DNA of 20,188 nucleotides, taken from positions 1 to 20,188 of IMG/VR virus record IMGVR_UViG_3300025379_000100; one strand, written 5' to 3'. Shown here in pieces: positions 788 through 17,554 of this stretch; position 1 is the first letter of the stretch, and each line of letters begins with the position of its first letter. The notes under the pieces were generated by a model. The model was not told where the DNA came from, ran no database searches, and saw only the letters and a list, made by a program, of their open reading frames with translations. This DNA is from a virus. A program made the position numbers and the translations under genes.

Positions 788-788
788 A

Positions 789-2720
789 ATGAGCTATACT
801 ATAACGCATACCGATGGAACCACATTAACTGTTATTCCTGACGGGCAAATTAATCAAACAGCATCGGATCTGACACTTGTTGGCAAAAATGCTACAGGTT
901 ATGGTGGATTTTTTAATGATAACTTTATACGTCTTTTAGAAAATTTTGCCAACACTACCCAACCAAATTATCCTGTAGTCGGACAGCTATGGTACGATAC
1001 TTCGGAGAATCGTCTAAAAGTATATGCCAACGGCGGTTTTACTGGTACAAGCGGAACTATTGTAAGTCCAACACCTCCTAGCGGAATAACTATTGGAGAT
1101 ATTTGGATTGACAATGCAAATGGTCAGTTATATTTTAATGATGGGATATCGACAAAATTAGCAGGACCTTTGTATAGTAGTAGTCAGGGAGTTAGTGGAT
1201 TTAACATAGAATCTGTAGTTGATATTAATGGTCAAAGTCATACTATTGCTGTGTTGTATGTTGCTGGTACAATATTAGGTATTTTTAGTAAAAATACTTT
1301 TATTCCTGCTAGCCCAATTGCAGGCTTTACAAGCATGGCGCAATTTATAGGCTATCAAACAAATAATATGTTAACAGTTGTATCAATTACTTCGGGTAAC
1401 ATGAGCGTAGGACAAGTTGTTTCTGGTATAAATGTATTATTGAATACACAAATTACTAGTCAGTTATCCGGAGATACAGGCAGTACAGGAACTTATACAG
1501 TTAGTACAAGTGCAACTGTTGGGTCTTCAGGTAGTCCTTCAACATTAACAGCAACAAGCGATGTCATACATGTTGGATTTAACACAAGTTCTTATCCTGG
1601 TGTAATTTTCAATGCAATTGCTACTGAAGCAAATGCTTTATTAGCTGCAGATGGTAGTTTAAAAACAGCAGAAAGTTTTTTAAGTGTTGACGGAAATAGT
1701 ACAACTAACGGATCAATTACAATACAAAATGCCAATCCGTTAACACTTGGTATAAATTCTAATGTTACGTTAAAATTCAATACTTTTAATAATACATTTC
1801 AATTACAATCAAATGTTATAAATCAAAATTTTGAAATTAATTTGCAAACATCTGGTAGTCTACAAACAGCAATGCATTTTGATACTCAGCATCAGCGTGT
1901 GGGAATTTATAATATTAATCCCCAGGCAATGTTAGATGTTGCAGGCGATGTAATTATTGAAGGAAATCTAACTGTTAATGGTACAACTGAAACAATTAGC
2001 AGTACTACAGTAACCATTGCGGATAAAAATATAGTATTAGGACAAACTCAAACTCCTACAGATACTACTGCCAGTGGCGGCGGAATAACAGTTGCTGGTC
2101 TCACAAATAAAGTAATATCCTGGAGTGCTTCTGCAAGTAATAGCGGCAGTTCATCTAATGCAGGTTATTGGAATTTTTCAGACTTTGTTAACGTTGGATC
2201 ATCGGGAACTAGTGCCGGATACTACCTAAACGGGCAACCAGTAGTAAGTGTCAATACAAATAATACTCAGTTTAGTCTAGGATCTAACATAACTGGATCT
2301 TCGCTAACTAGTGTAGGTGTGCTAACAAATTTACAAGCAAGTAATTTATATTTTAACGGTAGTACAATTAGTTATGTAAATGGCTCCCAGTCAACCGGTA
2401 CTGTATATCTGGCTCCAAAAGGCAACGGCACAGTTGATGTTTCAGGCGCAAGAATTAGCAATTTACAAAGCCCTCAATCTAGTTTGGACGCTGCTAACCA
2501 ACAGTATGTAATTACCCAAGTAACTACAGCACCGTTAGGCATTGGATTAATAACCACAGGATATAATAACACTACAATTGGAACATCATTATTGAGCAAG
2601 ATTTTTCCTCCTAGCGAGCACGGAAATTCAACAATTTGTAGGGTTCAATGCTCAGATAGCACACTAAAAGAGTACATATTAATAGGCGGAACGTGGAGTT
2701 GGCAATTTGATATTGTCTAA
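789..2720 (+). CDS. Virion fibre/structural protein, paralogue of the next gene
   Basis: A 643-residue, Asn/Thr/Ser/Gly-rich protein starting 1 nt after the collar-fibre stop. The N-terminal ~125 residues (MSYTITHTDGTTLT, LTLVGKNATGYG, NDNF, LLENFANTTQP, GQLWYD, GDIWID) form a module found at the start of many marine T4-like phage structural proteins, and it is repeated in the gene at 2770. Around residues 194-245 lies a repeat-type motif (SGNMSVGQVVSG followed by GSTGTYTVS) common in phage fibres. Later come RVGIYNINPQAMLDVAGD, NLTVNGTTETI and ADKNIVLGQT followed by GGGITVAG, a beta-rich stretch typical of cyanophage fibre shafts. No enzymatic motif was seen. The likely role is an adsorption fibre or baseplate decoration, inferred from family and neighbours. 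Confidence 0.8.
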   Translation: MSYTITHTDGTTLTVIPDGQINQTASDLTLVGKNATGYGGFFNDNFIRLLENFANTTQPNYPVVGQLWYDTSENRLKVYANGGFTGTSGTIVSPTPPSGITIGDIWIDNANGQLYFNDGISTKLAGPLYSSSQGVSGFNIESVVDINGQSHTIAVLYVAGTILGIFSKNTFIPASPIAGFTSMAQFIGYQTNNMLTVVSITSGNMSVGQVVSGINVLLNTQITSQLSGDTGSTGTYTVSTSATVGSSGSPSTLTATSDVIHVGFNTSSYPGVIFNAIATEANALLAADGSLKTAESFLSVDGNSTTNGSITIQNANPLTLGINSNVTLKFNTFNNTFQLQSNVINQNFEINLQTSGSLQTAMHFDTQHQRVGIYNINPQAMLDVAGDVIIEGNLTVNGTTETISSTTVTIADKNIVLGQTQTPTDTTASGGGITVAGLTNKVISWSASASNSGSSSNAGYWNFSDFVNVGSSGTSAGYYLNGQPVVSVNTNNTQFSLGSNITGSSLTSVGVLTNLQASNLYFNGSTISYVNGSQSTGTVYLAPKGNGTVDVSGARISNLQSPQSSLDAANQQYVITQVTTAPLGIGLITTGYNNTTIGTSLLSKIFPPSEHGNSTICRVQCSDSTLKEYILIGGTWSWQFDIV

Positions 2721-2739
2721 AAATTAAAAGCTAAAACGG

Positions 2740-2747
2740 TATAAATA
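2740..2747 (+). promoter_or_regulatory. T4-type late promoter motif TATAAATA
   Basis: A perfect match to the T4 late-promoter -10 consensus TATAAATA lies in the 49-nt gap between two fibre genes, 22 nt before the ATG at 2770. An AAGGA ribosome-binding site (2756-2760) follows. T4-like phages use this motif with their gp55-type sigma factor for virion genes, which fits the downstream gene. Late-factor genes are not in this window, so the assignment rests on motif and context. Confidence 0.6.
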
Positions 2748-2769
2748 CTAGGAATAAGGAACGAGCGAG

Positions 2770-4296
2770 ATGTCATATACGATTAAGCATTATAATGGTA
2801 CTTTACTAACTACAGTTGCGGACGGTACCGTTGATACAAGCACCGATCTTACCCTAATTGGTAAAAATTATGCCGGTTACGGCCAGTCACAAAACGATAA
2901 TTTTGTGTGGTTATTAGAAAATTTTGCTAACACCACCCAACCACCCAACCCACTAGCTGGCCAAGTTTGGTTTGACAGTGCAAATTTAAAATTAAAATTT
3001 TACGACGGAAGTCAATTTAGAACGGCTGGCGGCACCGAAGTAAGCAATGTACAACCCACAGGGCTAACAACAGGCGATTTATGGTTTGATACAGCTAGTG
3101 ATCAGTTATTTGTATATAACGGTACAACTTTTACACTAATTGGCCCACAAGGTATAGCTGGTGCATTGCCAACCGAGATGCAGAGTATTTCGGTTAAAGA
3201 TCTCGAAAACGGTGCAACACATGATATTATTCAAGCTATTGTAAACGGACAAGTAGCTTTTATTATTAGTCCCGATACTATTCCATTTACATTAGATCCT
3301 TCGATTAATTCTATTACAGGATTTGATAAAATACATCAGGGTATTACCCTAGCATACACAAGAAATTCTGATAACGGCATAACAAACAGCAGTTCTAGTT
3401 ATAGATTTTGGGGAACAGCTACAAATGCAGAAAAGTTAAATGGACTTCCGGCCAGCAGTTATTTGACATCAATAAATCCGTCATTCAGTACATCCGTAAG
3501 TTTTTCAGATTTTGGTTATACAGTAGGCGGCTCAGGTGGCACTTATTCTACAAAATTACAAGTGAGTATTGTTAATAACGGACAAACTCCGTTAATTTCA
3601 AATAAAATTAGCGATTCTATTTTATTCCAAACAACTAATAACAATTCACCAATAACATATTATCCATTGACAATTAAAGGTACTGATTTATTACCAGGAG
3701 GTCAGTTACCTGCAAATGGTTATACTAGCACTAATATAAACAATATTGGTAGTAGTTCAGCAACATGGGCTAATGTGTATGCGACTAATTTTATTGGTAC
3801 AGCTACTAATGCTAATTATTTGTCTTTAGGTGGTACACCTGTATCTGCTACTACAGCCAGTAGTGCAAATACAATTGTTGGTAGAGATAGCAACCAAGAT
3901 ATTTTTGCAAATGTTATTCACGGTACAGCTACTACAGCAAACTATGCTGACTTGGCTGAAAAATATCTTGCTGATGCCGAATATGAAACTGGTACAGTTG
4001 TTAGCATTGGCGGCAAAGCTGAAATTACAGCCAGTACTAAGGGCGATTTAGCCATTGGTGTTATTAGTGAACATCCTGCGTTTAGAATGAATCAAACACT
4101 AGTAGGCGGCGTTTATGTAGCATTAAAAGGACGAGTTCCAGTCAAAGTAATTGGCCCGATCACTAAAGGTCAAAGATTATCTGCTAGTAATAATGGATAC
4201 GCAGAATTGGCTACTGATAACACATTGGTGTTTGCCATAGCGTTGGAAACAAATTTAACAGATTCGATAAAAAATGTCGAGTGTGTTATACTTTAA
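2770..4296 (+). CDS. Virion fibre/structural protein with C-terminal ADLAEKY module
   Basis: A 508-residue protein. Residues 1-125 are a clear paralogue of the start of the preceding gene (MSYTIKHYNGTLLT, LTLIGKNYAGYG, NDNF, LLENFANTTQP, GQVWFD, GDLWFD). The C-terminal part from about residue 385 reads TANYADLAEKYLADAEYE, TGTVVSIGGKAEIT, GVISEHPAFRMN, VYVALKGRVPVKV, a beta-rich module that ends many marine myovirus structural proteins. Upstream of it, repeated GTATNANYLS and GTATTANYAD phrases suggest small shaft repeats. The gene has its own late-type promoter motif and an AAGGA site 9 nt before ATG. Like its neighbour it is probably an adsorption fibre or baseplate-attached protein; the exact place in the virion is unknown. 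Confidence 0.8.
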   Translation: MSYTIKHYNGTLLTTVADGTVDTSTDLTLIGKNYAGYGQSQNDNFVWLLENFANTTQPPNPLAGQVWFDSANLKLKFYDGSQFRTAGGTEVSNVQPTGLTTGDLWFDTASDQLFVYNGTTFTLIGPQGIAGALPTEMQSISVKDLENGATHDIIQAIVNGQVAFIISPDTIPFTLDPSINSITGFDKIHQGITLAYTRNSDNGITNSSSSYRFWGTATNAEKLNGLPASSYLTSINPSFSTSVSFSDFGYTVGGSGGTYSTKLQVSIVNNGQTPLISNKISDSILFQTTNNNSPITYYPLTIKGTDLLPGGQLPANGYTSTNINNIGSSSATWANVYATNFIGTATNANYLSLGGTPVSATTASSANTIVGRDSNQDIFANVIHGTATTANYADLAEKYLADAEYETGTVVSIGGKAEITASTKGDLAIGVISEHPAFRMNQTLVGGVYVALKGRVPVKVIGPITKGQRLSASNNGYAELATDNTLVFAIALETNLTDSIKNVECVIL

Positions 4297-4304
4297 AATA
4301 AATA
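4297..4304 (+). promoter_or_regulatory. Late-promoter-like AATAAATA
   Basis: AATAAATA differs from the T4 late consensus TATAAATA by one base. It lies right after the stop of the preceding fibre gene and 22 nt before the ATG at 4327, the same spacing as the perfect motif before 2770. AT-rich DNA gives such matches by chance, so this is tentative. An AAAGG stretch (4316-4320) is the likely ribosome-binding site. Confidence 0.35.
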
Positions 4305-4326
4305 GTTTTTAAATAAAAGGTAGAAC

Positions 4327-7300
4327 ATGGCAACAACCCCATCAGTTGGATCAAAAATTCTTGCTAGTGATTATAATGCATTGCAATCAAAAGTTGCTTC
4401 TGTAATGGGGGTAGGATCTGGTACATATGGTTATGGTCAAACTAGTCCACAATACACCAGTAGTCAGATAGTCGGAAACCCTACAATTACAGTCACTCAG
4501 TGGAGAAATCTACGTAACGATTTAATTAACGCATATACACACCAAGGCAGTATTGGAAATTTAACAATTCCATCAATTCCAACTACATCTGCAAAAGTTA
4601 CATCAGCAGATTATGCATTATATTCAGCATTGGCAACTTCAATTTATAACAATGTAAATGCTACACCGCCGTCAAGTCAAGCTAGTCTTACTTCATTTTC
4701 GTCAGGACAACGTACTACTGCATGGAACGGAACAGTTCATCATACAGTAACTTTAACATTTGCTTCAGCAGCGGCTGCTAGATACTATTTTAATTCTGGT
4801 GGAAATTTTCAATTCAGTGCTAGCCTGATCAATTATCCTGGTTATCCAGGCCACGGATCTGCTGATGCCAGTTATGCCAAGGATGCAGACTGGAACATGT
4901 TATTGACTAATATTGGAACAATTACGTTTAATATAAGTGGTACATCTACTACAGGATCTTATACAACTATTGGCAGCAGTATTGGATTTTACCAACTAAC
5001 TACTACACCACAGAATATCTTTCAGAAGAAAACATCGAGTCCATATTATACAAATAATCAATATGATATTTTAGCAAGCATTAATGCTGGTGGAACTGTA
5101 ATAACTTTTGATATTCAATTTGCTGACTTGTCAACTGGCGGGACAGATGAAAATATTGAAGGTACGCTAACTAGTCTAGTACAAGCATATTACGCTACCG
5201 GATCTAGTGTTCAAGTTAATTTACCTAGTTATAGTGCTACAATGACTGGCGGCACAATAGTAACTCCACCACCACCTGCACCTCCACCACCTGCGCCACC
5301 ACCACCTGCACCTCCACCACCTGCGCCACCACCACCTGCGCCACCTCCACCTGCGCCACCTGCACCGCCTCCACCGCCCAGCTACGGTGCATTTACTATT
5401 AGCCCTAGCCCAGTATATGCTGGACAATCAGTTACAGTGAGTGCAGTTGCAAATAGTGCAACGGGTCTAGCATATTCTTTAATTGTGTATGATACAAACA
5501 ATAACAGAGTAGTTAATACAACAGGTACAATTTCAACTAATCCACAAACAGTTACCGGATCGTTTACAGCATTATATAGTGGTCAACCTTATCTAGCTTC
5601 GTTTGATATCAATGGATTAACAACAGAAAGTCAGTCTATAAGTTTTGGCATACCAACTACCAGTGCACTAACAGCATCTCCTAATCCAGTAAGTGACGGT
5701 GGAACAGTAACTATGAATGCAACTGCAACTAATTTTGCTCCAGGATCAACGTGGTCAATAGTTGCAACAGCAGCACCAGCTAGTGGAGGTGCAACAGTTC
5801 TTAATGCAACTGGTACAATTTCAACCAGTCCGCAAACATTATCAGGTACATTCACTGGTTATTATAGTATTGGCAATTACGGTCCATATTCAAGTATACT
5901 TACAGTTGGTGGCGTTGGAAGTTCTGGCCCAACCATAACAGTGTCCGCACCACCTGCAATTAGTCTTAGTAATTTTGCATTCTATAGTGGATCAAATCCC
6001 GTTACTACTGTAGTTGGTGGTACCAGTGTAACATTACGAATAACAGTTTATAATGCAGTTGGACAAATTTGGAACTGGTTGGCTAGTAGCGGCGGCCAAA
6101 CTTATATTGCTAATGGAACATCTGGCACTATTAGTACTAACCCACAAACAATTATTAGCAGCCCATTTTCAGTAGTTTATACAGGTTTGGTCGTTAACGG
6201 ATCGTTTGATATAACTGGATACATACCCGGTGCAGTGGGTATAGCTTTAACAGTAACTGATCCAACACCTCCACCACCTCCACCACCTCCACCACCAACA
6301 ACTTACGGAGCATTTACAGCTAGCACAACTAGTCCTACAAACGGTCAAAGTGTAACAGTATATGCTGTGGTCAATTATCCACAAGGTCAATCATATTCGT
6401 TAGAAGTATTTAATAGTGCAAGTACTACTATAATATCTCAAACTAGCACTTTAAACAGTACTGGTTCGTCGCAGACAATTTCGGGATCATTTACTGCATC
6501 TTCTAGCGGTTCTCCTTACCATCCTTATTTTAATGTTTATGGATTATCGACAGAAACCGGTCCAACTATAACTGTACCACCACCGCCACCAAGCTATAAT
6601 GAAATTGTATCAGGACCCAGCACAGTTTATGTTAACCAAAGTTTCAACGTTAACTTGTCTGGCGGCGCACCGTACGCTACAGTACAGTGGTCTGGTGCAG
6701 CCAGTGGATCTGCTACGCTCGATGGTTCAGGTAATGGAGTCTTTGCCGGAGTATCATTCAGCAGTATAGGCACTTATAATTTTACCTTTGTCTTTGGAGT
6801 AACAATTGATGTTAGAACATATTCTGTCCAGGTAATTAATCCACCACCACCTGCGCCAACAGTAACAGCAAGTGGTGCACCAGTACCAAATACAACTATG
6901 TACTCAGGTACAGGTTATTTTTATGATGTTGCAGTGACTTCAACAAATGCTACTAGCGGAAGTTGGAGTGATACAGCCGGACACAGTGGTGCTGTTAATT
7001 TTATAGGCGGATTAAGTTCAGGCTTTAGCTTTACTATTTCTGGTTTACTCACTCCTGGATCTTATACAATATCAATTACAGTAACTGGTCCAGGCGGCTC
7101 AGCATCTACAAGTATTGGATATACACTAGCAACAGCACCGGCCCCAACATTAACATTCGTTAGTGTTTCTCCTACTAGTATTTCTGGATCGGTTGGCGGC
7201 ACAGTAACTGCTTACTATACAACTACTGGAGTTCCAACTGGCGGATTCTGGTACTGTTCAGGATCTGCCGGAACACTGGTAAGTACAACAGGATTTACAC

Positions 7301-7437
7301 CAAGTAATCCAAACGGATCATTAAGTGTATATATTCCTCCAGATTCAGCAGCCGGTACTCAAACTATCGGTGCTGATGACTATAATACTCAAGTAGATCC
7401 AACCGGCGGCAGCTCGATTTCGTTTACTATTACCTAA
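4327..7437 (+). CDS. Large proline-tract / Ig-like repeat virion protein
   Basis: 1036 residues. The N-terminal ~110 residues (MATTPSVGSKILASDYNALQ, GYGQT, TQWRNLRNDLINAYTHQG) match the start of structural proteins of marine T4-like phages. Residues 314-351 are a proline tract: six PPPPA units, then PPA and PPPPP. Seven Ig-like beta-sandwich repeats follow, approximately 352-443, 444-540, 545-647, 658-750, 756-838, 839-935 and 936-1036; several begin with further proline tracts at 648-657 (ten Pro), 751-755 and 839-844. Repeats 1 and 4 share YGAFT, GQSVTV and QTxxGSFTA. It has no signal peptide, membrane segment or enzyme motif. The likely role is an elongated, stiff surface fibre that binds host polysaccharide; Ig-like domains are common on phage virions. 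Two prolyl-hydroxylase-like genes follow at once (its TAA overlaps the next ATG by 1 nt), making the proline tracts obvious candidate substrates. The PPPP runs should also make translation EF-P dependent. Confidence 0.82.
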   Translation: MATTPSVGSKILASDYNALQSKVASVMGVGSGTYGYGQTSPQYTSSQIVGNPTITVTQWRNLRNDLINAYTHQGSIGNLTIPSIPTTSAKVTSADYALYSALATSIYNNVNATPPSSQASLTSFSSGQRTTAWNGTVHHTVTLTFASAAAARYYFNSGGNFQFSASLINYPGYPGHGSADASYAKDADWNMLLTNIGTITFNISGTSTTGSYTTIGSSIGFYQLTTTPQNIFQKKTSSPYYTNNQYDILASINAGGTVITFDIQFADLSTGGTDENIEGTLTSLVQAYYATGSSVQVNLPSYSATMTGGTIVTPPPPAPPPPAPPPPAPPPPAPPPPAPPPPAPPAPPPPPSYGAFTISPSPVYAGQSVTVSAVANSATGLAYSLIVYDTNNNRVVNTTGTISTNPQTVTGSFTALYSGQPYLASFDINGLTTESQSISFGIPTTSALTASPNPVSDGGTVTMNATATNFAPGSTWSIVATAAPASGGATVLNATGTISTSPQTLSGTFTGYYSIGNYGPYSSILTVGGVGSSGPTITVSAPPAISLSNFAFYSGSNPVTTVVGGTSVTLRITVYNAVGQIWNWLASSGGQTYIANGTSGTISTNPQTIISSPFSVVYTGLVVNGSFDITGYIPGAVGIALTVTDPTPPPPPPPPPPTTYGAFTASTTSPTNGQSVTVYAVVNYPQGQSYSLEVFNSASTTIISQTSTLNSTGSSQTISGSFTASSSGSPYHPYFNVYGLSTETGPTITVPPPPPSYNEIVSGPSTVYVNQSFNVNLSGGAPYATVQWSGAASGSATLDGSGNGVFAGVSFSSIGTYNFTFVFGVTIDVRTYSVQVINPPPPAPTVTASGAPVPNTTMYSGTGYFYDVAVTSTNATSGSWSDTAGHSGAVNFIGGLSSGFSFTISGLLTPGSYTISITVTGPGGSASTSIGYTLATAPAPTLTFVSVSPTSISGSVGGTVTAYYTTTGVPTGGFWYCSGSAGTLVSTTGFTPSNPNGSLSVYIPPDSAAGTQTIGADDYNTQVDPTGGSSISFTIT
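5266..5379 (+). repeat. In-frame 15-bp tandem repeat encoding (PPPPA)6 PPA PPPPP
   Basis: A run of 38 codons using only CCN and GCN. The first 60 bp are two identical 30-bp copies, each made of two synonymous 15-bp units (CCACCACCACCTGCA then CCTCCACCACCTGCG); two further 15-bp units and a degenerate end follow. The identity of the 30-bp copies points to recent slippage or unequal recombination. The plus strand is almost free of G within CCN runs and the minus strand has repeated GGT/GGA blocks. It is a coding repeat, not a CRISPR. Confidence 0.93.
6268..6297 (+). repeat. Ten-proline tract (CCT/CCA repeat)
   Basis: Ten consecutive proline codons in a CCT CCA CCA pattern repeated three times plus one CCA, encoding residues 648-657 of the large Ig-like protein. 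It separates Ig-like repeats 3 and 4 and, like the main PPPPA tract, precedes a YGAFT-starting Ig module, so the tract and the domain seem to have been copied together. Confidence 0.9.
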
Positions 7438-8024
7438 TGGATTTTGAAGTTTTAAATGATACTCCTAGAGTAGTCTATTATCATAACGTACTCACTAGCA
7501 GTGAGTGCGATTATGTTATTGCCAACATAGATAACTTTGAAAAATCTATGGGGTTTGATCTTGAAACTAAACAGTCAAAACCCACAGAGTGGCGTACTAG
7601 TAGCGGTTATCATGATTTTAATGATAAATTTAAGTATATTACAGAACGATCGGCAGAGTTGTCTAATTACCCGTTTGCTAATATAGAACAATTGCAAGTA
7701 TTACAGTATAAACCAGGCGAGTTTTATAAACCACATAATGATTATTTTAACTTTCCTCCCACTATTGTGTCCACTGATAACGACAGAGTTGCCACAATAA
7801 TTTTTTATTTAAATGATGATTTTACAGGTGGCACTACAGAATTTCCTACGTTAAATATCAACGTTAAACCTAGAAAGGGTTCTGCGTTATTTTTTGATTA
7901 CAAGTATACAGCTGAAATAAACAAACTAACATTACACGGCGGAATGCCAGTAGATTCAGGTGTAAAATACGTCGCTACATCTTGGATACGTGGCAATCAA
8001 TGGAGGCATGCCGATGGGCCTTAA
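7437..8024 (+). CDS. 2OG-Fe(II) oxygenase, prolyl 4-hydroxylase-like (first copy)
   Basis: A 195-residue protein with the P4H double-stranded beta-helix core. The iron triad is H100-x-D102 (in YKPHNDYF) and H167 (in LTLHGG). K177 in GVKYVATSWIR is the expected 2-oxoglutarate-binding lysine, placed ten residues after the distal histidine as in P4Hs. YLNDDFTGGTTEFP is the usual family strand. It is predicted to hydroxylate prolyl residues using Fe(II), 2-oxoglutarate and O2. The ATG overlaps the stop of the proline-tract fibre gene (TAATG), so the two are translationally coupled; this supports the fibre as substrate by inference. Host targets such as EF-Tu, known for some bacterial P4Hs, are an alternative. 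Length is normal for phage single-domain P4Hs and all key residues are present. Confidence 0.9.
   Translation: MDFEVLNDTPRVVYYHNVLTSSECDYVIANIDNFEKSMGFDLETKQSKPTEWRTSSGYHDFNDKFKYITERSAELSNYPFANIEQLQVLQYKPGEFYKPHNDYFNFPPTIVSTDNDRVATIIFYLNDDFTGGTTEFPTLNINVKPRKGSALFFDYKYTAEINKLTLHGGMPVDSGVKYVATSWIRGNQWRHADGP
8002..8006 (+). promoter_or_regulatory. Ribosome-binding site GGAGG deciding the start of the second oxygenase
   Basis: GGAGG lies 7 nt before the ATG at 8014, inside the end of the preceding gene. A GTG at 7990 and an ATG at 8008 are in frame, but the first lies upstream of this site and the second is only 1 nt after it, so 8014 is the preferred start. Confidence 0.7.
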
Positions 8025-8628
8025 TTACGTCGATACAGGTTATAAAACAATCTTTAGAGTTGATAACGCACTGGATTCTGACACTTGCGATCAACTCTAT
8101 AATTTTATGATCACAAACAAATTGAATTTGCAACCAACAGACAGCGTTTTACCTTGGTTTGATGACGAAACATATATTCCTTGGGACCTAGCAGATGTCG
8201 AGTTAAAGAAAAAGATTGTTAATTATAGACGATTGGTTACAGAAATAGTTTCTGAAAAATTCAATAAAACTCTTTATCCAGAGTTTACTCATCTTGTATT
8301 ATGGCGTACTGGACGACAAATGGCTCGCCATAAAGATGATGGATACGAATTAAATGATCCACTTGCCGCAAGAAAAGTCAGCTGTGTTACATATCTGAAC
8401 GATAACTTTACTGGTGGCGAAACATTTGTTACCAATGAAACAGGCACGGATTATATTAGCAAACCTGTTAAAGGATCTTTTGCCTGTTATCTGAGTGACA
8501 GTACAAACGAGCATGGTGTGAATCCTGTGTTATCAGGAATTCGTGTTACCATGCCAATTTGGTTTTGCGATGATATAACCAAATCCGAAGACGTTAGGCT
8601 TGCGGATATTATCAAATCTTTATCATAA
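8014..8628 (+). CDS. 2OG-Fe(II) oxygenase, prolyl hydroxylase-like (second, divergent copy)
   Basis: 204 residues from the ATG at 8014 (chosen for the GGAGG site; the open frame extends to a GTG at 7990). It overlaps the previous gene by 11 nt. The triad is H106-x-D108 (in ARHKDDGYE) and H167 (in NEHGVNPV). The 2-oxoglutarate-anchoring basic residue is R177 (GIRVTMPIWF) where the first copy has Lys. TYLNDNFTGGETF aligns with YLNDDFTGGTTEF of the neighbour, so the two are related, but most of the rest has diverged. The Lys-to-Arg difference and a different N-terminal half suggest a different substrate or position specificity, for example another tract or a different prolyl/lysyl site. A fully intact active site argues against decay. 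Confidence 0.87.
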   Translation: MGLNYVDTGYKTIFRVDNALDSDTCDQLYNFMITNKLNLQPTDSVLPWFDDETYIPWDLADVELKKKIVNYRRLVTEIVSEKFNKTLYPEFTHLVLWRTGRQMARHKDDGYELNDPLAARKVSCVTYLNDNFTGGETFVTNETGTDYISKPVKGSFACYLSDSTNEHGVNPVLSGIRVTMPIWFCDDITKSEDVRLADIIKSLS

Positions 8629-8646
8629 AATAATCACCTCTACCCA

Positions 8647-8675
8647 TTGACAAGATAATTAAAGTAGTATATTAT
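8647..8675 (+). promoter_or_regulatory. Sigma70-like promoter upstream of the 116-residue gene
   Basis: In the 66-nt gap after the second oxygenase, TTGACA (8647-8652) and TATTAT (8670-8675) are spaced 17 nt apart, a near-perfect host housekeeping-type promoter. The ATG at 8695 lies 19 nt past the -10 box, after CGGAG (8683-8687). This would let the hypothetical gene and the glycosyltransferase-like genes be expressed early or independently of the late fibre transcript. Confidence 0.68.
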
Positions 8676-8694
8676 ACTAGCTACGGAGTTATCT

Positions 8695-9045
8695 ATGGAC
8701 GAAAGAATCGAAAAAGCCTTTGGTGTTGCTAACTACATGGCTACATTATCAAATCAAAGACGTATTATTTTAGAAGAATACAATCAAAATTTGATACACT
8801 ATATCAATGGTGCAACATTTAAAATTACCTACGAATTAATTAGTTTTGTAAAAACACTAGTTGATTTGGGTAAAACAGAAAATATTGTACTTGTCGACAG
8901 CAATAATTTTCCAGTACTAATTGATAATTTAGAAGATTTTCTAAACAGTATTGTATCAACATATTTAGAAACTGTGTCTACGTATGCTGACAAGTTTAAC
9001 GAAATAAAAGTTAAACGTAAGATTGCAGACATAGTGGATCTATGA
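8695..9045 (+). CDS. Conserved small phage protein of unknown function
   Basis: 116 residues, mostly predicted helical (MDERIEKAFGVANYMATLSNQ, then ILEEYNQNLIHYINGATFKI, a LVDSNNFPVLIDN strand-turn, then a helical end with IKVKRKIADIV). It resembles a small protein family I associate with marine T4-like phages, but I know no function for it. No catalytic motif, membrane segment or cysteine is visible. It is the first gene behind a strong sigma70-like promoter and overlaps the next glycosyltransferase-like gene by ATGA, so it probably leads that transcription unit. Confidence 0.75.
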   Translation: MDERIEKAFGVANYMATLSNQRRIILEEYNQNLIHYINGATFKITYELISFVKTLVDLGKTENIVLVDSNNFPVLIDNLEDFLNSIVSTYLETVSTYADKFNEIKVKRKIADIVDL

Positions 9046-9881
9046 GTCAGGGCATCGTAATTTTTGCTCAAAATAATGCTGATATAGATTACATAAAACT
9101 GTCAGTATTTTCAGCACGTCAAGCACAACGATATCTTGATTTGCCTGTAAGCATAATCACAGACAGCAGAGGATGGTTAGAACAAAGCTGTCCTGATCAC
9201 CTGTTTGATCAAATTATAGATGTAGACTATACAGTGTCTGCACAGCGTAAAAATTTCTTTGATGGTGCGTTGACATCTAAAACACTTGAGTGGCGAAATT
9301 TTGCACGTAATAGAGCATATGATTTGACCCCATACGATACTACTCTAGTAATTGATAGCGATTATATTATCAACAGCAGTATTTTAAAACCCGCATTTGA
9401 TAGGGATATACCATTACAAATATATTCAAATAGTATAGATCTTGCCGAGTGGCGCAACACTGATGAATTTGCTCGTATCAACATGTTCAGTGTTCCTTTT
9501 TACTGGGCTACGGCATTTATATTTGAAAAAAATAAAACTACTGAAGCGTTTTTTGATCTAGTTGCTTATATAAAAACCAATTGGAATTACTACCGAATGC
9601 TTTATAATATAGATGCTATGTTGTTTAGAAACGATTATGCATTTAGCATTGCTATACATATTATGGGCGGTGATAATTTTGTTACAGAATTACCTGGCAC
9701 AATGACATATACTAAAGATAAAGATTTATTGGTTAGTATGCAAGACAATCAATTACAATTCTTACTCGAGAAAAAAGATTATGTGGGCGAATACATTGCC
9801 GCAAAAACACAAGGAATAGATGTTCACGTAATGAATAAATTTAGCCTTAGTAGATATATCGACGGAGGTACAGGTGTCTAG
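9042..9881 (+). CDS. GT-A-type glycosyltransferase-like protein (pair 1, copy A)
   Basis: 279 residues. The start, GIVIFAQNNADIDYIKLSVF, is a Rossmann-like first strand and helix; SIITD follows; then TTLVIDSDYII places a DxD motif at D105-S-D107, the usual metal and sugar-nucleotide site of GT-A enzymes such as GT8. A later YNIDAMLFRNDYAFSIAIHIM segment is also reminiscent of GT-A acceptor-side motifs. The neighbour starting at 9874 is a paralogue (GFLVLAQNTEDVDYVRQAYA, VLDTDMLLL). It overlaps its upstream gene by ATGA and its downstream gene by 8 nt. No membrane segment was seen, so a cytoplasmic enzyme acting on a phage or host acceptor is likely; donor sugar and acceptor are unknown. The family call rests on motif and fold pattern only. 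Confidence 0.7.
   Translation: MSQGIVIFAQNNADIDYIKLSVFSARQAQRYLDLPVSIITDSRGWLEQSCPDHLFDQIIDVDYTVSAQRKNFFDGALTSKTLEWRNFARNRAYDLTPYDTTLVIDSDYIINSSILKPAFDRDIPLQIYSNSIDLAEWRNTDEFARINMFSVPFYWATAFIFEKNKTTEAFFDLVAYIKTNWNYYRMLYNIDAMLFRNDYAFSIAIHIMGGDNFVTELPGTMTYTKDKDLLVSMQDNQLQFLLEKKDYVGEYIAAKTQGIDVHVMNKFSLSRYIDGGTGV
9864..9868 (+). promoter_or_regulatory. Strong GGAGG site supporting a GTG start
   Basis: GGAGG ends 5 nt before the GTG at 9874. It lies inside the last codons of the previous glycosyltransferase-like gene, and the product begins with SRGFLVLAQN, which aligns with the start of the paralogue (SQGIVIFAQN). The site and the alignment together fix GTG as the start. Confidence 0.7.
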
Positions 9882-10704
9882 AGGATTTTTAGTTTTAGCT
9901 CAAAATACTGAGGATGTTGATTATGTTCGACAGGCTTATGCACTGGCATTGAGTATTCGTAATAGTCAAACTATAACGAGTATATCGTTAGTAACAGATG
10001 ATCCTGTCCCTGAAGAATACCAACTTGTATTTGATAATATAATTCCTATTCCATTTGGCAACACTGATACAGTATCTCCATATCGGGCAGAAAATCGTTG
10101 GAAATTGTACCATGCAACTCCGTATGAAGAAACAATTGTTTTAGACACAGATATGTTGTTGTTAGAAGATATATCATCTTGGTGGACTTATTGCAACAAT
10201 TATGATATAAAATATACCAGTCGAATTCGCAATTATAAAATGGAAGTTGTTGAGGATCGTGTTCATAGAAAGGCATTTATTGCTAATCATCTGACTAGTC
10301 CATATAGTGCACTACACTATTTTAAAAAATCTCAAACAGCTTATGAGTTTTATCGAGTGTTAGAATTTGTCTGTAATAATTGGGAATGGTGTTGGAATAA
10401 GTTTGCACCTGAAGAATATCAAAATTGGTTGAGTATGGATCTCGCGGCAGCAATAGCAATAGAAATTACAGGCATGCAAGAACAAATACTAGATGTTAAT
10501 AGTCCATTGGAATTTGTGCATATGAAAACACATTTACAAAATTGGCAAGTTAATTCAACTAGCTGGCAAGATTTTGTATTAACTAATTTTGGTAATAATT
10601 TATCTGTATCAAATATATTGCAACATAAAGTATTTCATTATGTAGATAAAGATTTTTTAACTGACGAAATTATTAGCAAATTAAAGGATATTTCACATGG
10701 CTAA
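9874..10704 (+). CDS. GT-A-type glycosyltransferase-like protein (pair 1, copy B)
   Basis: 276 residues from a GTG start. SRGFLVLAQNTEDVDYVRQA aligns with the start of the previous gene. SISLVTDDPV is a second strand, and EETIVLDTDMLLLED carries the DxD motif (D91-T-D93). An aromatic-rich segment (FVCNNWEWCWNKFAPEEYQNW) may form an acceptor surface. LSMDLAAAIAIEITG parallels the YNIDAMLF region of copy A. It is predicted to be a cytoplasmic GT-A fold transferase; sugar and acceptor are unknown. It overlaps the previous gene by 8 nt and the next by 8 nt. Divergence from copy A outside the core suggests the two act on different acceptors or add successive sugars. Confidence 0.7.
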   Translation: MSRGFLVLAQNTEDVDYVRQAYALALSIRNSQTITSISLVTDDPVPEEYQLVFDNIIPIPFGNTDTVSPYRAENRWKLYHATPYEETIVLDTDMLLLEDISSWWTYCNNYDIKYTSRIRNYKMEVVEDRVHRKAFIANHLTSPYSALHYFKKSQTAYEFYRVLEFVCNNWEWCWNKFAPEEYQNWLSMDLAAAIAIEITGMQEQILDVNSPLEFVHMKTHLQNWQVNSTSWQDFVLTNFGNNLSVSNILQHKVFHYVDKDFLTDEIISKLKDISHG

Positions 10705-11335
10705 AGTTTTTCGTAAACGTAAAATTATAGAAGATCAGCCAACAGTACAAAAATATTATGTACATTATGATCCAACATCTAATCAAATTATAAGCGTTAA
10801 TAATCATAGGCACGACAGCTATACACATGCTGTAGAAGTTTCTTTTGATGAATACGATAGACTAGTTACAGGTAGAGATAAATTTAACGACTTTCATATT
10901 GGAGTTGTAATTCAATCAGACGGATCTGCTGTAAACGGTTTAGTATCTAAAAAAATAATACAAGAGCATAATTTTAAAAATAGATTTTTAGTATGGATAG
11001 ATCAAGAACGAGACTTGGCAGATATCTATGTACACTGGGATCAGTTTAACGAGCATTGGGTATTTTTTGTATCAGACGATTTTAGACAAAAATATTACGA
11101 TAACAAGTTACCTATTAGTACAATAAGTTTCTTTGTTACACTGGGAAAAGATCCTAATTTTTTATTAAGATCTATAGAAATAGACTTAAAAAAATTAGTC
11201 GAAGATAAAGTTGTTATTAAATTTGAAAATAAATGGGAAAAAAATCTCGATATGGTTTCTTTAACCGCTAACTTATCAAGTTTACGTTATTCATTAAAAG
11301 TTTGGAAATTAAATGAGCAAGATCAAAGTAATTGA
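10697..11335 (+). CDS. Hypothetical protein inside the glycosyltransferase cluster
   Basis: 212 residues; I do not recognise the family. It begins with a basic MAKVFRKRK segment and then looks beta-rich with many aromatics (KYYVHYDPTSNQIISVNN, FLVWIDQE, DIYVHWDQFNEHWVFFVSDD, SISFFVTLGKD). The end is helical and strand-like with repeated Lys and Leu. No DxD, HxD or nucleotide-binding motif was seen. It overlaps the preceding gene by 8 nt and the following gene by 23 nt, so it is embedded in the same transcript between the two glycosyltransferase pairs. It could be a virion component decorated by the neighbours or an accessory factor; nothing in the sequence decides. Confidence 0.72.
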   Translation: MAKVFRKRKIIEDQPTVQKYYVHYDPTSNQIISVNNHRHDSYTHAVEVSFDEYDRLVTGRDKFNDFHIGVVIQSDGSAVNGLVSKKIIQEHNFKNRFLVWIDQERDLADIYVHWDQFNEHWVFFVSDDFRQKYYDNKLPISTISFFVTLGKDPNFLLRSIEIDLKKLVEDKVVIKFENKWEKNLDMVSLTANLSSLRYSLKVWKLNEQDQSN

Positions 11336-12209
11336 ACAAGATATTGTTTTCCTCAGCTATGACGAACCTAATGCTGAGAAAAATTATGCAGATTTATTAA
11401 CTAAAGTGCCATGGGCTAAACGTGTGCACGGAGTTAAAGGTAGTGATGCCGCACATAAAGCCTGTGCAGCAAAATGTGAAACAGAATACTTTGTTACTGT
11501 AGACGGTGACAATATTGTCGACCCTGCATTTTTAGAAGTTGAAATAGACTTAGATGAATTAGGATTGACCAAAGATTATGTTTTTAGTTGGTGCGGAAAA
11601 GTTCATGTAAATCATCTAATGTATGGCAATGGCGGTCTTAAGATGTGGACTCCTGAATTTGTCAACAACATGCGCACACATGAAAATTCAGATCCTAGCG
11701 ACACCAAAGGCCTTGTTGAGTTTTGTTTTGATGAACGTTACTATCAATTTAATGAAAATTATAGTGAAAGTTTCACGAACGCCAGTCCGTTCCAAGCATG
11801 GAGAGCAGGCTTTCGAGAAGGCGTAAAAATGAGTTTAGATCAAGGTGCTAAGGTAACAGATCTTAAAACTATATGGTGGCAAAACTACCATAGACTGCTA
11901 GTATGGTGTAATATCGGAGCAGATGTAGCCAACGGACTATGGAGCATGTACGGAGCAAGAGAAGGTGCATACTTGACCAACTGTACTGATTGGGATTATA
12001 GCAATGTACGTGATTTTGATTGGTTAACTGAACAGTGGGAAACACAATACAGTAAAGTCACAGATGATATGTTAAGGCATGAAATTTCTGGCCTAGGAGA
12101 AACACTTAAACATGAATGTGGACTAGAGCTTTTTGATCCATGCAAAGACTCTAGTAAATTTTTCAAAACTGTGTTTAATAACAGCCCACGAATTGTTAGG
12201 AAAAGATAA
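11313..12209 (+). CDS. GT-A/GT2-type glycosyltransferase-like protein (pair 2, copy A)
   Basis: 298 residues. DIVFLSYDEPNAEKNYADLL is the first strand and helix of a GT2-like fold; RVHGVKGSDAAHKACAAKC precedes YFVTVDGDNIVDPAF, with D64-G-D66 as the DxD metal site. YGNGGLKMWTPEF, FQAWRAGFREGVKMS and DFDWLTEQWE each have a match in the next gene, showing a paralogous pair. No signal peptide or membrane segment is present, so it is likely cytoplasmic. The ATG at 11313 lies 23 nt inside the previous gene; no strong alternative start is seen. The next gene starts at its stop (TAATG). Donor and acceptor are unknown; surface-protein or DNA modification are both possible, and context favours virion proteins. 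Confidence 0.68.
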   Translation: MSKIKVIEQDIVFLSYDEPNAEKNYADLLTKVPWAKRVHGVKGSDAAHKACAAKCETEYFVTVDGDNIVDPAFLEVEIDLDELGLTKDYVFSWCGKVHVNHLMYGNGGLKMWTPEFVNNMRTHENSDPSDTKGLVEFCFDERYYQFNENYSESFTNASPFQAWRAGFREGVKMSLDQGAKVTDLKTIWWQNYHRLLVWCNIGADVANGLWSMYGAREGAYLTNCTDWDYSNVRDFDWLTEQWETQYSKVTDDMLRHEISGLGETLKHECGLELFDPCKDSSKFFKTVFNNSPRIVRKR

Positions 12210-12910
12210 TGTACGATATTGCATTTATCAGTTACAACGAAACTCAAAGTACAAGTAAATATATTGAACTTGTAACATCCTTTCCGTACAATCGTACTGT
12301 AAGAGTTAACGGTATCAAAGGTATACATCAAGCACATATAGAAGCAGCCAAACAAGTAAAATCCAATATGTTTTATGTAGTAGATGCTGATGCAAAACTG
12401 TTGCCTAGTTTTAAATTTGATATTAAATTAGATCCCAGCGAAGAGGATATAGTACATGTTTGGCGAAGTATTAATCCAGTCAATGGTTTAGAATACGGAT
12501 ATGGCGGAGTAAAACTTCTTCCTACAAAATTAACATTGAATTTGGATATTAAAACTTTAGATATGACTACCAATATAAGTAGCAGATTTAAAGTAATGCC
12601 TGATGTCAGTAATATTACACAATTTAATACTGATCCGTTAAGCACATGGCGTAGTGCATTTAGAGAATGTGTAAAATTATCTAGTAGACAATCTAACGAA
12701 GAAAGTCAACATAGATTATATACTTGGATACACTTGGGCGGCGATGAAACGTTTGGAGAATATTCCAAAGGTGGTGCTAGTGCAGGGCAATGGTATGGAA
12801 CAACTTATAAAGATGATCCGGACGCACTGGCCAAGATTAATGATTATGATTGGTTAGAAGAACAGTTCAAAGCGCATATTGAACTGTTTCCTCCGGAGAC
12901 TTTTAAATAA
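12209..12910 (+). CDS. GT-A/GT2-type glycosyltransferase-like protein (pair 2, copy B)
   Basis: 233 residues, about 65 shorter than its paralogue. YDIAFISYNETQSTSKYIEL, then RVNGIKGIHQAHIEAAKQV, then MFYVVDADAKLLPSF with D59-A-D61 as DxD. EYGYGGVKLLP, LSTWRSAFRECVKLS, WIHLGGDETFGEYSKGGASA and DYDWLEEQF match the preceding gene segment by segment. It lacks the Cys-containing C-terminal extension of copy A. Translation is probably coupled (1-nt TAATG overlap). It is the last plus-strand gene, and its stop end overlaps that of convergent thyX by 8 bp. Function is inferred from fold motifs only. Confidence 0.68.
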   Translation: MYDIAFISYNETQSTSKYIELVTSFPYNRTVRVNGIKGIHQAHIEAAKQVKSNMFYVVDADAKLLPSFKFDIKLDPSEEDIVHVWRSINPVNGLEYGYGGVKLLPTKLTLNLDIKTLDMTTNISSRFKVMPDVSNITQFNTDPLSTWRSAFRECVKLSSRQSNEESQHRLYTWIHLGGDETFGEYSKGGASAGQWYGTTYKDDPDALAKINDYDWLEEQFKAHIELFPPETFK

Positions 12911-13580
12911 GCTCAGTAGTCATTGGGAAGATATCAGCAATGACTTTTGCACAAGCAATTGCAACTTCCTGATGTTCTTTTTGTGTGCCATTTGCACTAC
13001 GTAATTCAATAAAGTGAATCCAGCTACGCAGTGTACCGTTCATGTATAATCGACTTTCAATAAGTCCTTCGGGCAATACAGCACGAGCTTGCTCTTTGGC
13101 AATACCGTTAACAATAGCCCAATCGTATGCTTCTCTAGCTTTAGTGATCAGACTATTCTGTATATTTTCCCAACCAGCTGCAAGAAATCGATCAGCATCG
13201 TTATTAAGATCTAACTCTATACTGTTCTGTCTATTTTTGGTATCTTGTCTGCGAGCATCTCTAAATACAAAGTTGAGATCCTTTGTTGGGTCAGCATAAC
13301 GTTGGGAGAATTCTTGAAAGCTGAAACTTCTGTGTCTAAGGATTTGTCTTGCGATATCTCTTGTAGTAGTAATCTCGATGCAGGCGGACACCATTTCGAG
13401 AGGACTCCAATGTTGGTGCTTGATAAGATATCGTATGAGCTTTTCTGAGGTTTCTGTATTAAGTTGATTGCTCGGATTACTGACTCTTGCACAGTAGGCA
13501 ATGAGTTCTTGTGCATCAGAGATTCCCATGCTTGAAAATTCTTTAGTTGGCTGGCTGTAACTAAGCAATTTAACATTCAT
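12903..13580 (-). CDS. thyX: Flavin-dependent thymidylate synthase ThyX
   Basis: 225 residues, a normal ThyX length. It catalyses dUMP to dTMP using FAD, NADPH and methylene-tetrahydrofolate, supplying thymidine for phage DNA synthesis. The signature RHRxxSxxxxSxR is present as R82-H83-R84, S87, S92, R94 in RHRSFSFQEFSQRY. HQHWSPLEM (His/Ser region), EQARAVLPEGL (residues 163-173) and LRSWIHFIELR (184-194) are the other conserved blocks. It is the last gene of the minus-strand operon; its ATG follows the preceding TAA with no gap. All catalytic residues are present, so it is likely functional. ThyX rather than ThyA is usual in many marine phages. Confidence 0.96.
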   Translation of the reverse strand: MNVKLLSYSQPTKEFSSMGISDAQELIAYCARVSNPSNQLNTETSEKLIRYLIKHQHWSPLEMVSACIEITTTRDIARQILRHRSFSFQEFSQRYADPTKDLNFVFRDARRQDTKNRQNSIELDLNNDADRFLAAGWENIQNSLITKAREAYDWAIVNGIAKEQARAVLPEGLIESRLYMNGTLRSWIHFIELRSANGTQKEHQEVAIACAKVIADIFPMTTELI

Positions 13581-13901
13581 TTATAACTTCTTTCTTTTTA
13601 AAAATTTCTGTGTACTAGATTCTATATCTTTACGCACACGCTCTGTATCTAATTTAAAATCGATATTATCAATACTATCTTCATATGATTTACATATTTC
13701 GGATAGGCTTTGTTCCAATGACGGCCACCCCTCGCGCCTTGCCTTAGCTGTTATTTTAATTTCCCAAGTTTTACCATCTCTAAAATTGACCAAAACGGTT
13801 TCAAGATACCTAATAGGTAACACATTAAGTTTAACATCACCGAATACTTCTGGCCAAAGTGCTATGACATCCTTGGGAAGAGTCTTCCCAGTTCTTGTCA
13901 T
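13581..13901 (-). CDS. Conserved marine T4-like phage hypothetical protein
   Basis: 106 residues: DVIALWPEVFGDVKLNVLPI, then RYLETVLVNFRDGKTWEIKI, then a basic and helical end (DTERVRKDIESSTQKFLKRKKL). It resembles a small protein family seen in marine T4-like phages, for which I know no function. The ATG overlaps the previous stop (ATGA), and thyX begins directly at its stop, so it is in the same operon. The C-terminal Lys/Arg cluster could contact nucleic acid, but no defined motif is visible. Confidence 0.8.
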   Translation of the reverse strand: MTRTGKTLPKDVIALWPEVFGDVKLNVLPIRYLETVLVNFRDGKTWEIKITAKARREGWPSLEQSLSEICKSYEDSIDNIDFKLDTERVRKDIESSTQKFLKRKKL

Positions 13902-14503
13902 TTTACAGTTTGCTTCTTGGTCGGAACCAATTCCTCTGCTAGTCTACGATAGTTGGCAGCTTCTTTAGCAAGTTTATCAGCTTTAGAACGATATTCTTTA
14001 GCTTGCGCTTCAGGAGTTAATGCTGTTGTGGTTTCTGTTTCTACAACTTTGGCTGTAGGAGCAAGTTCGTTAACTTGTGCAACTGTTGGCTCTTTCTTCT
14101 TGTCGTTGATACCTTCACTAATAGCTAAATCGTCAACTGCAATACCGCGTTGTTCTGCAATAATTTGATTTAGTTCGCTAAGTAAAATACCAGCACCTGG
14201 AACAGGTGTCATTTCGATAGCATCAGTTGGTGCCTTAAGCAATCGATTGTTAACATGCAACCATGGCAACATACGACTACCGTCTGGGAACTGTGTACGA
14301 TCTAATGCTTCTGCAAACTCGTTGGCTTCTTGTCCAGCTGAGCTTTCTACTAGATTAATGATAGCATCGTGATAAATGTCAGGCATGTTTTCTGTAGGAA
14401 CAATTAAACAACTATATGCATCGCCGGGCAAGGTGCGATAAGCCACTAGACATTTTTTATTAGTGGCTGTAACACGGCCCACGTGTTTGAGTTCTTGGGC
14501 CAT
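13898..14503 (-). CDS. Conserved marine T4-like phage protein, 201 residues
   Basis: The start is ATG at 14503 (MAQELKHVGRV), 1 nt after the previous stop and 7 nt after an AGGAG site; a longer frame to 14518 would overlap the upstream gene. The core reads HVGRVTATNKKCLVAYRTLP, GDAYSCLIVPTENMPD, NLVESSAGQEANEFAEALDR, FPDGSRMLPWLH and LLSELNQIIAEQRG. It resembles a conserved family I associate with cyanophage-type T4-like viruses, with no known activity. The second half is low-complexity and charged, ending in a probable coiled coil (residues ~155-190, KADKLAKEAANYRRLAEELV). It could be a structural or scaffold-associated protein, but no evidence decides this. Confidence 0.82.
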   Translation of the reverse strand: MAQELKHVGRVTATNKKCLVAYRTLPGDAYSCLIVPTENMPDIYHDAIINLVESSAGQEANEFAEALDRTQFPDGSRMLPWLHVNNRLLKAPTDAIEMTPVPGAGILLSELNQIIAEQRGIAVDDLAISEGINDKKKEPTVAQVNELAPTAKVVETETTTALTPEAQAKEYRSKADKLAKEAANYRRLAEELVPTKKQTVK

Positions 14504-14504
14504 A

Positions 14505-14786
14505 TTAAGCTCCTGCAACAGCGTTTGCTACAGCTTGACTATTTGTTTGTGGTGCAGTTGGTTGAGTACCTGCTTGTGGTTGTGCAGCTTGTTGTGCAGC
14601 AACTGAGTCTAAAAATGTAGTTAACTTGGTATAAGTTTGACCTACAGCTACCATTTCATTTGGCTTAAATGCACCGCGTGAACTGGCAATATCAATGATT
14701 ACTTTCATTGCGTTTAAGTCGTTGATAGTAAGATCGTTGCTTTGAGCAGCTTCTGCTCCAGTTGGTTGATTTTGTACATCAGACAT
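14505..14786 (-). CDS. Small conserved phage protein with Ala/Gln-rich tail
   Basis: 93 residues. The middle (LTINDLNAMKVIIDIASSRG, AFKPNEMVAVGQTYTKLTTF) is a helical core I associate with small proteins of marine T4-like phages; the ends are Ala/Gln/Pro/Thr-rich and probably disordered. AAGGAG precedes the ATG. It sits directly before the 201-residue conserved gene with a 1-nt gap, and the pair likely works together. Function is unknown. Confidence 0.8.
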   Translation of the reverse strand: MSDVQNQPTGAEAAQSNDLTINDLNAMKVIIDIASSRGAFKPNEMVAVGQTYTKLTTFLDSVAAQQAAQPQAGTQPTAPQTNSQAVANAVAGA

Positions 14787-14821
14787 TAGAATCTCCTTGT
14801 TTTGATTAAGTACACATTTAA

Positions 14822-15109
14822 TTATCTTGTCTGTAAATGTGGACAGGCAATTGTGAAAAAACTCAGTTCTTTTTCACTTTCAAATCCTATACGTGTGCAA
14901 TACACGATAGTGTTAGTATTATCTAGCGTAATATCTTGTCCTACATAATACCTGTTATTTAAATTTTTACGTATCCAAGCATCAAATAATTTGATTGTAT
15001 TTGGACTGTATTTGTCTATAACTGTATATTTAAAATGAGGACAGGCAAACTCTACCCTCCTCAAGTCAAAGTAATTTAAGGGGTTAGGTTTGCCGTTTTT
15101 AAGTGCCAT
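14822..15109 (-). CDS. Small hypothetical protein with two CPH motifs
   Basis: 95 residues starting at ATG 15109 (MALKNGKPNPLNYFDLRRVE), 1 nt after the stop of the VWA gene; the open frame reaches back to 15217, but that part lies inside the VWA gene and is unlikely to be translated. It contains FACPHFKYTVID near the start and FTIACPHLQTR at the very end, two Cys-Pro-His motifs that might bind a metal or bracket the fold. No family is recognised. The start choice rests on spacing; the ribosome-binding site must lie in the last codons of the VWA gene. Confidence 0.72.
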   Translation of the reverse strand: MALKNGKPNPLNYFDLRRVEFACPHFKYTVIDKYSPNTIKLFDAWIRKNLNNRYYVGQDITLDNTNTIVYCTRIGFESEKELSFFTIACPHLQTR

Positions 15110-15110
15110 T

Positions 15111-16295: not shown

Positions 16296-16322
16296 TTAAA
16301 CTCCTGTTTTGCTATAGTATAT

Positions 16323-16351
16323 ATTATAACACCACCCGAAGGTGGTGTCAA
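16323..16351 (-). promoter_or_regulatory. Sigma70-like promoter for the VWA gene with a hairpin spacer
   Basis: On the minus strand TTGACA (16351-16346) and TATAAT (16328-16323) are separated by exactly 17 nt, a full-consensus promoter, 27 nt before the ATG at 16295. The spacer plus the last three bases of the -35 box are one perfect inverted repeat. It lies right after the ATPase stop codon, so the VWA gene can be transcribed on its own or by read-through. Confidence 0.78.
16329..16348 (-). repeat. Perfect 8-bp hairpin with UUCG tetraloop in a promoter spacer
   Basis: Minus strand reads ACACCACC, TTCG, GGTGGTGT: an uninterrupted 8-bp stem closed by C(UUCG)G, an exceptionally stable tetraloop frequent in T4-type phage intercistronic hairpins. 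It starts 19 nt after the ATPase stop. No U-run follows (TATAATATAT comes next), so it is not a standard intrinsic terminator. It could be an mRNA 3'-end stabiliser, a processing site or a DNA operator. Confidence 0.9.
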
Positions 16352-16367
16352 ATAGCTTTAAATCCAA

Positions 16368-17459: not shown

Positions 17460-17515
17460 CTTGTTTCCTATCTTAGTTAAAAAAATACGTTGTTGAATTA
17501 ACTCTGTATGTATAT

Positions 17516-17544
17516 ATTATACAGGCTTAGTTGCAGACAGTCAA
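17516..17544 (-). promoter_or_regulatory. Sigma70-like promoter for the ATPase operon
   Basis: Minus strand TTGACT (17544-17539), a 17-nt spacer and TATAAT (17521-17516), 56 nt before the ATG at 17459, lie in the 95-nt gap after the upstream gene. The -10 box and following bases form TATAATATATAC, identical over 12 nt to the promoter of the VWA gene. It probably starts early transcription of the ATPase-to-thyX operon. Confidence 0.75.
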
Positions 17545-17554
17545 CACTTATTTT

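Follow-up and report, generated by a model that had tools for sequence, protein, structure and literature searches.

A phage fibre-like protein with proline tracts encoded in one present-or-absent block with two predicted 2-oxoglutarate oxygenases

The small prolyl 4-hydroxylase (P4H) of the eukaryotic virus PBCV-1 converts proline-containing peptides in vitro, although a review gives it no known role (PMC7019647), and mimivirus encodes collagen-type proteins together with modifying enzymes (e.g. the glucosyltransferase R699; PMC9546862). Oxygenases dependent on 2-oxoglutarate (2OG) and Fe(II) are abundant in cyanophages and other marine phages, their function being described as uncertain (PMC3037559); two other papers report EGLN3-like structures for marine phage 2OG oxygenases (PMC12774648) and, in a paper on auxiliary metabolic genes, remark on collagen in tail fibres (PMC9301287). 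Aquatic phage genomes thus hold many 2OG-Fe(II) oxygenases without a known substrate, the published guesses being 2OG modulation, DNA repair and collagen. Here we describe a virus record of 20,188 bases (IMGVR_UViG_3300025379_000100, analysed in its entirety and hereafter called the window) in which a fibre-like gene containing proline (Pro) tracts is followed by genes for two such enzymes, OxyA and OxyB. The oxygenases and the Pro-tract extension of the fibre-like protein come and go as a block, which names a testable substrate for these enzymes. No description of a phage module combining a Pro-tract fibre with its own hydroxylases was found in the open-access literature, most subscription papers lying outside that scope.

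The fibre-oxygenase block and its distribution among relatives

The block and its components are as follows (window coordinates; aa, amino acids):

5256-8622, plus strand: present/absent module comprising the main Pro tract, the C-terminal extension of the fibre-like protein, OxyA and OxyB; missing in relatives L094 and L095
4327-7437, plus strand: fibre-like protein, 1036 aa, with a conserved N-terminal core of ~310 aa followed by beta-rich repeats linked by Pro tracts
5266-5379, plus strand: main Pro tract, residues 314-351, (PPPPA)6 PPA PPPPP
6268-6297, plus strand: P10 tract, residues 648-657
7437-8024, plus strand: OxyA, prolyl 4-hydroxylase by sequence, HxD..H..K
8014-8628, plus strand: OxyB, 2OG-Fe(II) oxygenase, HxD..H..R; open reading frame (ORF) opens at 7990, likely start ATG at 8014

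L094 and L095 are near relatives of the window (94% identity in the glycosyltransferase GT1) in which this block is missing with its flanks intact. Window positions 2-5255 align to 4317-9572 of L094 and positions 8623-19862 to 9582-20836, with 9 bp between, the missing segment beginning just upstream of the Pro tract and stopping at the end of OxyB. This absence in one piece means that the candidate substrate and its candidate modifiers were gained or lost together, either by gain here or by loss in L094 and L095. The window's own sequence was also contained in a 51.9-kb contig (L003/L093), its proteins being 100% identical.

Scans with two families of glycosyltransferases (GTs) encoded downstream of the oxygenases yielded ~150 relative loci, chosen regardless of oxygenases, and each of the five contigs carrying oxygenases (Oxy+) was recovered by these scans too, not through OxyA alone. 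Gene order was conserved (tail collar, g2, g3, fibre, h116, GT1, GT2, h212, GT3, GT4, ThyX), and in most relatives the fibre-like protein was only ~300 aa long, matched residues 1-310, had Pro runs of 1-3 and was accompanied by no oxygenase. Among the 73 distinct loci having the whole interval, with Pro tracts scored as runs of at least four, five contained both Pro tracts and oxygenases, one Pro tracts only, none oxygenases only and 67 neither (Fisher 4e-7, a value that ignores relatedness). When only fibres of at least 600 aa were counted, the corresponding numbers were 5, 1, 0 and 11 (p 0.001, again ignoring relatedness). On a tree of GT1, GT2 and h116 the oxygenase state changes at least five times and the Pro state four times. 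These data support an association of the oxygenases with the Pro tracts. A preliminary description of this DNA had staked its case on finding Pro tracts and P4H genes together in related phages, and these do occur together, in one block that is gained or lost as a whole. One locus, L097:5543-9534, holds two tandem fibre genes, the second bearing P12 and P5, and is the single exception to the co-occurrence.

The Pro runs of the window's fibre-like protein comprise (PPPPA)6 (residues 314-343), PPPPP (347-351), P10 (648-657), PPPPP (751-755) and PPPP (839-842). Residue shuffles of this protein (n = 5000) produced a run of at least 10 in no case and of at least six in 6 cases, and the codons of the PPPPA repeat differ synonymously, so that the repeat is not simply a fresh product of slippage. 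Among relatives the C-terminus is strongly divergent yet the tracts are kept (PPPPA, PPPPPPYVA, PPPPPYV), the ~310-aa core being the sole part of the protein retained in relatives that lack oxygenases. Searches with the protein gave neither a Pfam match above cut-off nor a hit among PHROGs or named phage records, and its translation contained no Gly-X-Y repeat tract. Judged from the tail-collar and structural-protein matches of its neighbours, it is a putative virion-type protein and would be located in the virion.

The start of OxyA overlaps the stop of the fibre gene by 1 nt (TAATG), and OxyA is coupled to the fibre gene in every complete Oxy+ locus. OxyA matched PF13640 (E 4e-17), with its iron ligands (H100-x-D102 and H167) and K177, which aligns with the Lys that binds the 2OG carboxylate in P4Hs, invariant among relatives. 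A profile built from ten OxyA relatives and searched against all PDB sequences gave nine matches, all of them prolyl 4-hydroxylases (B. anthracis, 1.4e-55; Chlamydomonas Cr-P4H-1, 1.4e-39; human P4HA2, 3.6e-30; and PBCV-1, 3e-29, among them). Residues R53-T-S55, E84, Y97, R117 and W183, which we take to be peptide-groove residues of P4Hs, were also invariant and aligned with Cr-P4H-1. By sequence, OxyA is a prolyl 4-hydroxylase.

Homology between OxyB and its relatives begins at the ATG at 8014, which is therefore the likely true start. This protein matched PF13640 (E 7e-11), and H114-K-D116, H175 and R185 were invariant in five relatives, Arg standing where P4H-type enzymes have Lys. Its best match among solved structures was a weak one to prolyl 3-hydroxylase 1 (E 6e-6 over 79 residues), followed by a PKHD-type hydroxylase (0.009), and some relatives carry OxyA without OxyB. 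OxyB is a candidate prolyl hydroxylase beside the clearer one, OxyA. The preliminary description had read the locus as a 1036-residue fibre (ORF 4327-7437) with six PPPPA units and further Pro tracts, coupled to a P4H-like oxygenase with a complete HxD..H..K and followed by a second with HxD..H..R, and all three elements were confirmed. As a matter of annotation, phrog_2297 is labelled DNA endonuclease but matches 2OG oxygenases, and the label looks wrong.

Proline-repeat proteins and oxygenases in other phages

One distant match of OxyA (L240) has as its neighbours several oxygenases in a row and a protein with (PPYF)n at its end. When the DNA pattern of (PPxF)3 was scanned for without regard to oxygenases, 60 distinct PPxF genes could be evaluated. 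An oxygenase came directly after 26 of these, against 85/565 of the remaining genes of those loci (p 9e-7), and at least one lay among the three following genes in 44/60 against 232/565 (p 2e-6); no PPxF gene (0/60) had an oxygenase within three genes upstream, and up to nine oxygenases followed within 12 genes. The comparison is conservative, since oxygenase arrays in the same loci raise the background rate, while the p-values are not exact because the loci are related (one N-terminal cluster accounts for 55/81). All four called oxygenases that were checked in these arrays were PF13640 above cut-off. In L263, L303, L294, L368, L371 and others, a C-terminal (PPFF/PPYF/PPHF)n repeat is followed by up to about ten 2OG-Fe(II) oxygenase genes; these phages are unrelated to the window, and the gene upstream of the PPxF gene has tail-fibre and structural matches.

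DUF6065 (PF19541) lies beside 2OG oxygenases in the window's phage group (L029:1077-1871 and L111:728-1522) as well as in the PPxF arrays (L303:5006-5725, L263:6012-6725 and L294:3642-4340), which makes the DUF6065 protein a candidate third component. A sulfotransferase, as read by eye from a gene of the PPYF array (L240:1806-2576), was supported neither by PHROGs nor by Pfam on its L294 counterpart.

The cultured phage S-SCSM1 (L509:1834-10856, MK867354.2) has seven annotated 2OG-Fe(II) oxygenases flanking its tail fibre and short tail fibre genes, and its short tail fibre, SSCSM1_245, contains an Arg/Pro-rich repeat (RQPRNFRQP...), a single case; this phage grows on Synechococcus WH7803. In ACG-2014f_Syn7803C8 (L510:4037-9513), a stretch of 5.5 kb near the tail fibre genes encodes a glycosyltransferase, the 2OG oxygenase PiuC and a protein with collagen repeats.

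We tentatively propose that in several unrelated phage lineages the virion fibres contain proline-repeat rods that are hydroxylated by physically linked 2OG-Fe(II) oxygenases, a reading that may cover the Pro-tract/OxyA-OxyB module, the PPxF arrays with DUF6065 and possibly the S-SCSM1 short tail fibre, and whose chances we would place somewhat short of even. If true, it would give a function to many orphan 2OG oxygenases of aquatic phages and would place hydroxyproline in bacterial virus particles.

A proposed role for the block, and its rivals

The genes on either side of the block are the following:

2-787, plus strand: tail-collar protein, by tail-collar match
789-2720, plus strand: g2, protein with a virion-structural match
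2770-4296, plus strand: g3, protein with a virion-structural match
8647-8675, plus strand: promoter-like TTGACA-N17-TATTAT upstream of h116, conserved in 81/96 relatives
8695-9045, plus strand: h116, conserved, first gene of the GT cassette
9042-9881, plus strand: GT1, GT-A-like glycosyltransferase, in the core cassette and outside the present/absent module
9874-10704, plus strand: GT2, paralogue of GT1
10697-11335, plus strand: h212, conserved
11313-12209, plus strand: GT3, GT-A-like, resembling GT2-type enzymes
12209-12910, plus strand: GT4, paralogue of GT3

Between OxyB and h116 lies a gap of 66 bp that contains the strong promoter-like site; for the four GT genes, such a site was found upstream in 0, 0, 0 and 4 of ~100 relatives each. 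The DxD motif was invariant across both families (D105/D107 of GT1 in the GT1+GT2 family and D64/D66 of GT3 in the GT3+GT4 family). AlphaFold models of GT1 (pLDDT 88.8) and GT3 (pLDDT 82.0) had GT-A enzymes as their best Foldseek matches (probability 1.00, but TM-scores of only 0.3-0.5): glycogenin, UGGT and GT6-type enzymes for GT1, and GT2-type enzymes and the PBCV-1 capsid glycosyltransferase for GT3. Neither protein had a curated family match above cut-off or a named phage homologue. Both are very likely glycosyltransferases, with a predicted GT-A-like fold. The four DxD-bearing GT-A-like genes noticed earlier are upheld as to motif, a GT-A-like fold being predicted for GT1 and GT3, but the cassette also holds h116 and h212, which are not GTs. 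The cassette belongs to the core genes of this phage group, being present also where Pro tracts and oxygenases are missing, and sits outside the present/absent block; it is most likely a core operon separate from the fibre-oxygenase module. GTs dedicated to hydroxyproline are unsupported, because the cassette is core, lies outside the block and has its own conserved promoter-like site. For the GTs of other aquatic phages host-surface modification has been suggested (PMC7029224), as has, among several options, virion glycosylation (PMC12619734). Relatives of GT3 with 35-47% identity were seen in Bdellovibrio/Bacteriovorax-like metagenome-assembled genomes (genome_contigs, L502-L505), too distant to name a host.

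On the minus strand of the window are ThyX and a block that includes a DUF2201/VWA protein as well as an AAA ATPase. The protein at 15111-16295 is DUF2201/VWA by Pfam, yet phrog_1314 is labelled HNH endonuclease, a label that looks wrong. Rfam and tRNA scans of the window returned no matches.

The one-block module points to chemical modification by phages of the proline rods that they themselves encode. In the reading that we think probable, window 5256-8622 is a substrate-plus-modifier module: the C-terminal extension of the fibre, in which beta-rich domains would be joined by Pro tracts, is encoded with two 2OG-Fe(II) oxygenases, and OxyA, a small P4H without partner subunits, would hydroxylate the tract prolines using Fe(II), 2OG and O2, with OxyB probably acting on other positions of the fibre. 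This would take place in the host cytoplasm, during or after fibre synthesis and ahead of assembly. 4-Hydroxyproline favours the polyproline-II helix, and hydroxylation would stabilise polyproline-II rods between the domains to give a stiffer fibre. The tract as substrate, the formation of hydroxyproline, the location in the virion and the mechanical role are steps that we infer.

Several observations weigh against this proposal. Although the P4H encoded by PBCV-1 is active, no hydroxyproline was detected in the virions of that virus (PMC7019647). The tree-aware test has three well-supported independent pairs, all in the same direction or tied, with which significance is unreachable. In other phages OxyA-like genes also lie after the gene of a portal-like protein of ~816 aa, so that adjacency alone is weak evidence, and the case is therefore carried by the one-block absence and the contingency. 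In L071/L097, P12 and P5 tracts occur with no OxyA-like gene on the 42.8-kb fragment, and among 23 randomly sampled phage proteins with plain P8 runs an oxygenase was near in one. This last sample rules out a universal need of poly-Pro for oxygenases. It also fits, with its 22 proteins lacking an oxygenase nearby and together with the tracts of L071/L097, the idea that Pro tracts are plain spacers associated with oxygenases by chance in a variable locus. We regard that idea as very improbable, given the one-block absence, the contingency and the recurrence at PPxF loci; moreover, the fibre-oxygenase interval otherwise holds almost only fibre genes and is thus not a site for random cargo.

The oxygenases might instead have another target, be it a different residue of the fibre, a protein of the host or a small molecule, and accompany the fibre extension since the block is transferred in one piece. 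2OG oxygenases have many substrates, those of cyanophages have been linked to 2OG modulation or DNA repair (PMC3037559), similar enzymes adjoin non-fibre genes, and OxyB, in which Arg replaces the Lys, resembles prolyl 3-hydroxylase 1 only weakly. OxyA, however, matches prolyl 4-hydroxylases only among solved structures, and the oxygenases occur with Pro-tract fibres but not with equally long tract-free ones, which leaves this alternative rather unlikely. We likewise consider it unlikely that the hydroxyprolines made by OxyA and OxyB are then O-glycosylated by GT1-GT4 to give a hydroxyproline-rich glycoprotein fibre, the system put forward in the preliminary description. The GT genes are adjacent to and on the same strand as the oxygenases, GT-A-like folds and DxD motifs are present, and algal polyproline-II Pro residues do become O-glycosylated hydroxyprolines (PMC11015965), but the cassette is core in relatives that have neither Pro tract nor oxygenase, and lies outside the block with its own promoter-like site in 81/96 relatives. 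What stands of that system is the Pro-tract protein with a linked prolyl hydroxylase; the GTs are not co-inherited with the tracts.

Comparison with described systems

If the proposed module is real, phage fibres would mature in part by a process that needs O2, iron and 2OG, and phages would offer small prolyl hydroxylases whose natural substrates are poly-proline. The 2OG-Fe(II) oxygenases of cyanophages and other marine phages (phrog_61) belong to the same superfamily as those of the window, but no Pro-tract substrate module is proposed for them in the excerpts of PMC3037559, PMC12774648 and PMC9301287. Mimivirus resembles the window in encoding both a substrate-type protein and its modifiers, though it has Gly-X-Y repeats and hydroxylysine chemistry, whereas the window's fibre has no Gly-X-Y repeats. 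Plant and algal hydroxyproline-rich glycoproteins (extensins, mastigoneme MST1) share with it PPPPA/PPPYV-like tracts combined with P4H (PMC11015965), and differ in that the window's GT cassette is not co-inherited with the Pro tracts. The P4H of PBCV-1 (PDB 5c5t) is likewise a small virus-encoded enzyme, but that of a eukaryotic virus, with no linked substrate module described in PMC7019647. The P4Hs of B. anthracis and Chlamydomonas (Cr-P4H-1) are matched by the OxyA profile over nearly the whole catalytic domain, with iron ligands, Lys and groove residues kept; unlike them, OxyA, known here from sequence, is encoded by a phage, its gene being coupled to that of a fibre-like protein with Pro tracts.

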